Notes under the pieces: generated by a model | Databases searched by the model: none | What the model was told of the DNA's origin: nothing | The model's input: only the letters and a program-made list of their open reading frames with translations | Shown: one piece after another, positions 42,036-42,827 of the stretch | Layout: each line of letters starts with the position of its first letter | Position numbering within the stretch: position 1 is the stretch's first letter | From: Dyadobacter flavalbus | GTDB lineage: Bacteria > Bacteroidota > Bacteroidia > Cytophagales > Spirosomataceae | Assembly (NCBI RefSeq): GCF_006149045.1 | Contig: NZ_VBSN01000073.1 | Location: 186,001-250,000, forward strand | Length of the DNA: 64,000 nt | Direction of reading: 5' to 3' | Position numbers and translations under genes: made by a program

Positions 42036-42108
42036 TGGAGAGGTCACTGCGAACGTTATTCAAGTACGCTTTGTCAAGCCTCGGGACTTTCGTCCGTATG
42101 CCTCTCCA
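42036..42108 (-). ncRNA. structured 73-nt element, copy 1 (downstream of the 100-codon ORF)
   Basis: Read on the minus strand it begins TGGAGAGGCATACGG and ends CGCAGTGACCTCTCCA. The outer GGAGAGG/CCTCTCC arms can close a stem, and GGAC-GAAA-GTCC forms a hairpin with a GNRA loop. Copy 2 at 42456-42529 has the same ends. The two flank one small gene at 20 and 25 bp. No known RNA family is recognised, and an RNA role is an inference. Confidence 0.45.
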
Positions 42109-42127
42109 AAACCTTTGTTTAACTTCA

Positions 42128-42430
42128 TTATTTAGAAATAACCTGCTTTTCCCTTTCGATTTGTTCAAAGCTTTCCCAAAGAAGTTTCAAATCAAAAAGA
42201 GCGGATTTTTCAACTTTATTAAATGAAATATCCGAATGATAAAGCGCCAGATCGTGAATCAGTTTCAAGGAACGCGAAAATTCCATAACGCCATGCGAAA
42301 GTACAAGTTCTAGAAAATCCGCTTGTGATTGCGTGAAATTGAATCTAGGATTTGACACCGAATGGGAATTAATCTTTTTGTCAACCGAGTAATCATTTAA
42401 ATCAGCATTTGAACCAATTGGTGTTCGCAT
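42128..42430 (-). CDS. 100-residue orphan protein flanked by structured repeats
   Basis: I do not recognise this protein. It opens MRTPIGSNADLNDYSVDKKI and has a mostly helical C-terminal two thirds (TQSQADFLELVLSHGVMEFS, FDLKLLWESFEQIEREKQVI). There is no signal or membrane segment. Its base composition is AT-rich like the surrounding intergenic DNA. The gene lies exactly between two direct copies of a 73-nt element, like a cassette. No partner gene is adjacent. Confidence 0.5.
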   Translation of the reverse strand: MRTPIGSNADLNDYSVDKKINSHSVSNPRFNFTQSQADFLELVLSHGVMEFSRSLKLIHDLALYHSDISFNKVEKSALFDLKLLWESFEQIEREKQVISK

Positions 42431-42455
42431 TTTAGTAAATTAAAATGAATGAAAA

Positions 42456-42529
42456 TGGAGAGGTCACTGCGAACTTAAACTTAGCTAGGCTATGATCGGT
42501 TCCGGAACTTTCACCCGTATGCCTCTCCA
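42456..42529 (-). ncRNA. structured 73-nt element, copy 2 (leader of the 100-codon ORF)
   Basis: On the minus strand it begins TGGAGAGGCATACGGG and ends TTCGCAGTGACCTCTCCA, 25 bp before the ATG at 42430. The terminal stem is unchanged from copy 1, while the GAAA-capped hairpin arms change from GGAC/GTCC to GGGT/GTTC, which can still pair by wobble. The middle 20 or so bases differ. Confidence 0.45.
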
Positions 42530-42827
42530 AGAGCATATTTCGAATCGATCAATTAACATAAAAGACAGCATATAATAAATTTTAAGTTCGCGTGGCAAAT
42601 ATAGGATTTAATTCTAATCAGAAATAAGCTGTTGTAAAATGATGCGGTTGTAAAGTACCCGTTTGTTGCAGCTTCATTATTTGGTGTAAAAAATCGGCGC
42701 TTTACTTGAAAACATTTTTCTGATTTCGGACAAATATTCCGGCGTTTGTTGCCTTTACTTGAAAATGGAATTTATACCTGAACATTGATCTGCAAATTCT
42801 TTCCGATTTGGAATTTTATTCAAAAAA
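42530..42827. other. AT-rich intergenic stretch before the DUF4256 gene
   Basis: I see no gene, strong hairpin or operator here. Confidence 0.4.

Follow-up and report, generated by a model that had tools for sequence, protein, structure and literature searches.

Element copies and gene at the Dyadobacter flavalbus locus

The window analyzed here, a stretch of 64,000 nt from Dyadobacter flavalbus, carries on its minus strand a gene of 100 codons situated between two copies of a structured element. The features read at this locus are the following:

42037-42107 (71 nt), minus: element copy 1, located 3' of the gene
42128-42430, minus: target gene of 100 codons, between copies 1 and 2
42423-42428, minus: A1'' (GCGAAC) at the gene start, overlapping the ATG at 42428-42430; 6 bp with A1'
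42457-42528 (72 nt), minus: element copy 2, the putative C4-like RNA of the window unit
42522-42528 with 42457-42463, minus: closing stem (P1) of copy 2
42503-42517, minus: tetraloop hairpin (P2) of copy 2
42489-42492 with 42482-42485, minus: P3 of copy 2, weak, 4 bp
42469-42479, minus: A1' of copy 2
42546-42551, minus: leader arm A3 (TGATCG); in the predicted fold it pairs with CGATCA at 42493-42498 of the element
42581-42591, minus: A1 (GCGAACTTAAA), close to the transcript's predicted 5' end; 11 bp with A1' of copy 2
42596-42603, minus: promoter-like box TATATTTG, Bacteroidota-type -7, read in the sequence 4 nt 5' of A1

The first-pass annotation had described two direct copies on the minus strand with left ends 420 bp apart, sharing both ends and an inner hairpin capped by GAAA, and all of this was confirmed, the ends GGAGAGGCATACGG and CGCAGTGACCTCTCC being exact in each copy. 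One of the two gaps between gene and copies was also correctly given (20 nt), but the other is 26 nt instead of 25. The change from GGAC/GTCC to GGGT/GTTC in the arms of the inner hairpin does keep pairing, as had been observed, but does so via G-U pairs and is weak when taken alone; strong covariation was found elsewhere, namely in the closing stem between genera, in the leader arms and in the arm at the start codon. A 14-mer search allowing up to 3 mismatches returned 7 occurrences against approximately 3 expected by chance, with exact matches at the two copies only. Copy 2, a row in both covariance models built (R1 and R2), scored 73.8 bits with R1 and 69.2 bits with R2, and copy 1, a row of R1, scored 73.6 and 50.8 bits, respectively.

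Copy 1 has neither a leader nor a gene of its own, and the 130 nt preceding it contained no promoter-like box. An equivalent of this copy (91% identity) was found at the same place in one further genome, G025, and a terminator-like hairpin was absent after the ORF both in the window unit and in its G025 counterpart. Copy 1 is probably a remnant or a recombination junction, located where most units have a terminator. The pairing at the gene start spans 6 bp in the window unit, compared with 11 bp for the pairing at the 5' end, and the third hairpin is weak; this unit may be partly decayed. Ten neighboring proteins were scanned, and they were either ordinary chromosomal proteins or had no family, with no phage gene and no integrase among them.

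Anatomy and distribution of the unit in Dyadobacter

Initially called an orphan, the gene turned out to have relatives encoded in 28 of 48 genomes of the same genus (E ≤ 0.1). In a species-level collection, relatives of the protein were found at 36 loci, all of them from Dyadobacter, and within the order the protein was encoded in 14 of 291 genomes (11 of Dyadobacter and 3 of a single genus from another family). Further copies of the element in other genomes, as well as conserved pairs in the covariance search, were looked for and found: as a DNA query the element had matches in 33 of the 48 same-genus genomes at E ≤ 1, the weakest of which are noise, and the R1 model detected it at 63 places in 27 of them at E ≤ 0.01. 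In Dyadobacter genomes the relatives of the gene are normally accompanied by one element, located upstream, and a second copy just 3' of the gene was seen only in the genome of the window (G000) and in G025. Since the flanking pair was found in just these two genomes, the two-copy cassette is regarded as a local accident. The proposal of a leader and tail RNA pair acting on the gene was close to right for the upstream leader, whose helices covary, but not for the tail, present in two genomes only.

The real unit is composed of a putative promoter, a 5' leader, the element, a start codon and a small ORF, in most cases with a terminator; that the structure includes the upstream flank as well as the start codon had been overlooked, as had the parallel with phage C4. 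A total of 58 rows were extracted, 51 of which had the promoter-like box or a one- to two-base variant of it, and the remaining 7 were dropped (2 false, 2 corresponding to copy 1 in the window and its G025 equivalent, and 3 without a box). The order was a TATATTTG-type box, 4-5 nt, A1 (GCAAACTT), A2, A3, the element, a linker and a start codon overlapping A1'' (ATGCAAACTTC). The spacing from box to A1 was 4 or 5 nt in 50 of the 51 boxed rows, and the distance from the end of the element to the start codon was 26-32 nt in 48 of the 51 units, the other 3 being unread by the script. A terminator-like hairpin followed by a T run was found after the ORF in 40 of the 51 units and was absent in 11. 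The box resembles the Bacteroidota consensus, and we take it to be a putative promoter.

The element folds into a closing stem, a tetraloop hairpin and a third hairpin, followed by the single strand A1'. The leader arms A1, A2 and A3 complement segments of the element in nested order, and are mutually exclusive with the third hairpin and with the pairing at the start codon. When the first strand of the closing stem was left open, RNAfold predicted the A1:A1' pairing, which was also recognized on visual inspection in almost every one of the 51 units.

Many leaders contain a reading frame running through the element (RPKWPWRGIRVQVP-like; 42457-42590 in the window, and homologues), probably a by-product of RNA conservation. 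A conserved upstream peptide was considered and, by eye, rejected: variation in the loop follows GNRA, a pattern of the RNA, and in L024 the frame is interrupted by a stop. Two units, L015 and L018, have an intact leader and element together with a truncated ORF, and thus represent RNA-only copies. Another one, L076 (G020 C3:1777300-1779100), combines the leader arms of one subfamily with the element of another, leaving A2 unpaired (by eye), a chimera that suggests recombination between units.

The ORF encodes at least 88 aa in 45 of the 51 units. From approximately codon 37 onwards, third codon positions were 2.1-2.7 times as variable as first positions, indicating a real protein under selection, and in the first ~36 codons this ratio was 0.8-1.3. 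Two hairpins were considered at the start of the ORF: the first was paired in 283 of 315 cells, above all 1000 permutations (mean 275), and the second in 215 of 225 cells, a value attained in 85 of 1000 permutations. AlphaFold predicted three helices over residues 34-99 (mean pLDDT 72) and an unstructured N-terminus. The Dyadobacter protein had no Pfam or PHROGs match and no relative in viral contigs; its comparison with solved structures gave a single, unconvincing match (E 1.4), and the search with the predicted fold gave no significant match (best E 1.8).

Among the 51 units, flanks were alike in just 28 upstream and 22 downstream pairs; being mostly unrelated, they indicate that the units are dispersed. 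Some units had a flank on only one side in common with units of other genomes (L012, for example, resembles L070 in its upstream flank, and L016 and L069 in its downstream flank), as if units were rearrangement sites. This one-sided sharing, and the two direct copies in the window, would fit a pair of recombination sites moving the gene as a cassette, as had been suggested for the locus. Such a reading is nonetheless extremely improbable: the flanking pair is restricted to 2 genomes, where the downstream copy has no promoter-like box or leader, the structure reaches the leader and the start codon and covaries with both, and there was no integrase among the 10 scanned neighbors. An integron attC site or gene cassette was discarded as well, as a second recombination-type site occurs in 2 genomes only.

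Three-way complementarity and divergent members of the family

In order to describe the pairing between A1, A1' and A1'', 50 of the 51 boxed Dyadobacter units were counted; the A1'' row of L005 was one base off register and was counted as a failure. At positions 0-8 of A1:A1', 48-50 of the 50 units were paired (0-2 failures per position), with up to 4 pair types, and at positions 0-9 of A1'':A1' the pairing was kept in 46-50 of the 50 units (0-4 failures each), with 2-4 pair types at several positions. Changes at a given position occur jointly in all three segments (GC/AT at position 2 and TA/GC/AT at position 6), which implies two alternative partners for A1', one at the transcript's 5' end and the other at the gene start. 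With G-U allowed, all 10 positions were paired in 42 of the 50 units at the start and in 32 of 50 at the 5' end. Besides the window unit, the start pairing was limited to 6 bp in L014 and L019. No downstream partner was seen for the A2 and A3 arms.

Because related Dyadobacter copies are not independent, divergent members matter most. The R1 model reached five other genera of the family (222 genomes), four of which were confirmed by the stem or by a strong R2 score; in the fifth, G101, the R2 score was 30.8 bits. Among these loci, L147 and L148 are contained entirely in contigs that also belong to the viral collection (where they are listed as L183 and L164, respectively), hence the DNA is treated there as provirus. 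A motif pattern matched 52 loci in viral contigs, and 20 of 390 genomes of the order, compared with 2 of 390 for a reversed control pattern. A filter demanding a closing stem of at least 5 pairs left 23 rows of 58 loci, from which 2 were rejected by eye and 1 was a duplicate, so that 18 of the 52 viral loci and 2 loci from genome G138 were kept. Further motif scans yielded 80 loci, and another 15 that were all already in the set; R2 detected 1 in the 80 loci, and in another 33 loci from these scans it gave two weak matches and nothing strong. One locus among the 20 pattern-matched genomes, L209, lacks the closing stem and scored 17.3 bits with R2. The pattern matches L162 and L178 look like other RNAs (by eye) and were rejected. 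In a phylum-wide draw, R2 matched 3 of 394 other genomes, and the RNA is consequently sparse outside the Spirosomataceae.

Divergent closing stems have other sequences and yet are paired (GGCCGG/CCGGCC, AGGCAGG/CCTGCCT and ACGACGG/CCGTCGT). In an alignment of 31 sequences, both-sided changes were found at 6 of the 7 pairs of the closing stem and 95.9% of its cells were paired, stem counts that are inflated because viral members were picked by motif and stem filter, a filter that does not favor A1. Covariation over the whole structure in the 31 sequences was 0.457, compared with 0.167 in shuffled alignments (0 of 500 reached the observed value) and 0.06-0.19 for slid partners. Pairing in the third hairpin was lower, at just 66-70% of cells. 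The GNRA hairpin and the GTGACC core were strongly conserved; viral rows had been chosen by motif, but R1, which was not so chosen, agrees.

The complementarity was maintained in most of the 21 divergent units (18 viral loci and 3 from other genera, including a few close relatives among themselves). Watson-Crick runs of at least 8 between A1' and its own gene start were found in 17 of 21 units, compared with 9 of 420 swapped pairs, and runs of at least 9 in 15 of 21, compared with 0 of 420. Upstream, A1' showed a run of at least 8 in 12 of 20 units and in 6 of 400 swapped pairs. Downstream runs were of just 4-7 in L164, L189, L207 and L146. Among members outside the 21, L271, L242 and L243 had downstream runs of 11, 10 and 10, respectively, and L244 had a run of 12 upstream and just 4 downstream. 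As judged from these alignments, the pairing is well supported. In L242 (near position 1602; genome G332, from another family) the start codon reads ACG and A1'' is intact, which would correspond either to a non-standard start or to a decayed gene.

Copies within one genome tended to differ in A1': decamers were equal in 2 of 72 pairs, compared with 7.2 expected (P = 0.014; 64 rows, 2 of them spurious, covering 62 of the 63 Dyadobacter R1 matches). This would suit insulated specificities, although the same pattern could arise if old paralogues were inherited. Two units with different A1' (L179 and L203) were also observed on a single viral contig, IMGVR_UViG_3300027891_000600.

The ORFs downstream of divergent elements encode 30-144 aa in most units and 192-244 aa in six. 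Ten of these proteins, from viral contigs and other genera, were scanned against Pfam: Bro-N was found in L165 and L181, P22_AR_N in L170, and nothing above the cut-off in the other 7. Both are families of phage antirepressors, and PHROGs names the L170 protein anti-repressor Ant. The proteins of L190, L193 and L207 are Bro-N-like by eye. A tblastn search of the L190 protein against named phages matched 1137 records, all below 60% identity and including phage genes annotated as antirepressor, and no Bacteroidota phage was present among the 20 matches listed. In the antirepressor-like genes of L165, L181, L190, L193 and L207, a short hairpin was seen by eye soon after the start codon; it is GGCAGTANNCTGCC-like, although the paired letters differ in L165.

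Comparison with phage C4 RNA and proposed function

The C4 RNA of phages P1 and P7 (RF01695, with a1/b1 as RF03163) has an anatomy resembling that of the new unit: a promoter, upstream targets, a three-hairpin RNA of 72-77 nt and, downstream, a target located where a small gene begins. In the P1 record the order is the a1 and b1 targets, C4 RNA (77 nt), the a2 and b2 targets, icd and ant, and the Rfam alignment of P1 c4 shows a closing stem of 17 bp, one hairpin with UUCG, another hairpin with its loop, and a single-stranded segment. According to PMC5320573, C4 has three stems with loops a' and b' and is processed by RNase P to ~77 nt. The C4-type fold was present in the new family as judged by pair counts (closing stem, tetraloop hairpin, third hairpin and a single-stranded b' before the closing strand, here A1'), as were complementary targets upstream and downstream in one predicted transcript, the exceptions named above aside. 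An antirepressor family lies directly downstream in 3 of the 10 scanned proteins from viral contigs and other genera, and the Dyadobacter gene had no such match. There are differences as well. The tetraloop is GNRA in the new element and UUCG in C4, the closing stem has 6-11 bp instead of 17 bp, and the Bacteroidota target overlaps the start codon itself. Moreover, the Bacteroidota upstream arms are nested for pairing in cis, unlike the a1/b1 order of P1, visual inspection of Bacteroidota units revealed no a2-like target downstream, and the new family comes from Bacteroidota instead of Proteobacteria.

The RF01695 model, which finds P1 itself with 68.8 bits, had no match in the D. flavalbus genome (E ≤ 10), the window, 6 Dyadobacter loci or 8 viral loci, and P1 c4 was matched by neither R1 nor R2. 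Given that no match was obtained in either direction, homology or common descent with C4 is unproven. When the window and the same 6 Dyadobacter and 8 viral loci were scanned against Rfam, only tRNAs reached the cut-offs; for the element itself, tRNA and tmRNA were discarded, none being found. No earlier account of a Bacteroidota or Dyadobacter version was present among the papers listed in searches of an open-access library. The sar antisense RNA of phage P22 is transcribed from the opposite strand, unlike the Bacteroidota RNA, which is on the same strand, upstream and in one predicted transcript. Type III toxin-antitoxin systems (ToxIN-like) consist of tandem short RNA repeats followed by an endoRNase of the ToxN fold; they were discarded here on the basis of one element per unit except in 2 genomes, no Pfam match and a predicted three-helix protein. 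Antisense pairing that hinders initiation of an antirepressor would be a likeness shared with sar, which is described as repressing the antirepressor in this way (PMC12197685). C4 is placed under Proteobacteria and phages in the table of Weinberg 2010. Chromosomes of A. baumannii are reported to carry C4-derived copies, whose Group 1 sRNAs have a processed form beginning GGW (PMC5320573). As described there, Group 1 resembles the Dyadobacter units in its many chromosomal copies differing in the target-specifying loop; most Bacteroidota units, in contrast, still have the promoter box and the target in one piece with the small ORF, and the Dyadobacter RNA belongs to another RNA family in another phylum.

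On the basis of its sequence features, we consider the element to be a likely counterpart, in Bacteroidota, of the C4 antisense RNA of P1 and P7, dispersed in Dyadobacter as small stand-alone units; within the limits of sequence evidence, it appears to work as C4 does. The sequences directly show the anatomy of the unit, a closing stem and a three-way complementarity that both covary, and antirepressors downstream in some viral contigs; excision, action in trans, repression and the role of the protein would follow by analogy with C4. A single promoter would give rise to a transcript with 5' leader, element and small ORF, in which the element would fold into a closed three-hairpin domain of ~72 nt. 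The single-stranded segment A1', placed like b' of C4 before the last strand of the stem, is complementary to the start-codon region A1'' of the ORF. The domain may be excised at the GG of the closing stem, a step carried out in C4 by RNase P. Once mature, the RNA would pair with the start region in other transcript copies and block initiation. In the unprocessed transcript, the leader arms A1, A2 and A3 (like a1/b1 of C4) would pair with the same segment; as they would compete with the start-codon pairing, we propose that new transcripts are translatable until the antisense RNA accumulates. In viruses, early genes such as antirepressors would be held back, and in Dyadobacter the unit, which stands alone as a small transcription unit and is dispersed, often in several copies, would restrain a small helical protein.

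Two other explanations were weighed. The element could stay in the mRNA as a leader switch acting only in cis, in which a ligand, a protein or folding kinetics picks between leader pairing, leaving the start free, and start pairing, blocking it, in the manner of a riboswitch or an autoregulated leader. The nested leader arms, exclusive with the third hairpin and the start pairing, and the strong conservation of the GNRA hairpin and GTGACC core would agree with it. We nevertheless regard this switch as unlikely: the downstream genes are diverse (unknown small proteins, Bro-N, P22_AR_N), unlike those of a metabolite switch, A1' varies yet keeps the match to its target, as expected for antisense specificity, and the anatomy fits C4, described in PMC5320573 as an RNA that is excised. 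Alternatively, the ORF could encode a growth inhibitor silenced by the antisense RNA, resulting in addiction or abortive infection, a toxin-antitoxin or defense role compatible with the C4-like reading; an RNA-protein defense module had also been among the first-pass proposals. In its favor, the units are small and have a promoter box of their own (with a terminator-like hairpin in 40 of 51), icd, which C4 targets in P1, carries the annotation of a cell division inhibitor, and A1' tends to differ among copies of the same genome. This role is improbable, however, as the protein has no family or structure match, the ORF is decayed in L015 and L018 despite an intact leader, and the A1' differences could simply reflect inherited paralogues.

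If the element is indeed a counterpart of C4, this RNA would represent C4-type antisense logic in Bacteroidota with a different RNA fold, in viral contigs and in dispersed chromosomal units. Ribosomes of this class are reported in PMC9976891 not to use Shine-Dalgarno pairing, and the position of A1'' suggests start-codon targeting in a class that does without it. We would venture, with little confidence, that Dyadobacter has repurposed a phage immunity RNA into self-contained modules insulated from each other, each of which would produce an antisense RNA of distinct specificity and silence its own small protein, as well as any incoming phage with a matching early-gene start, and would thereby provide a specificity-coded superinfection immunity. 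The family may offer a route to predicting lysis-lysogeny control in Bacteroidota phages, and its natural set of paralogous antisense RNAs would be a test bed for the evolution of insulated specificities.
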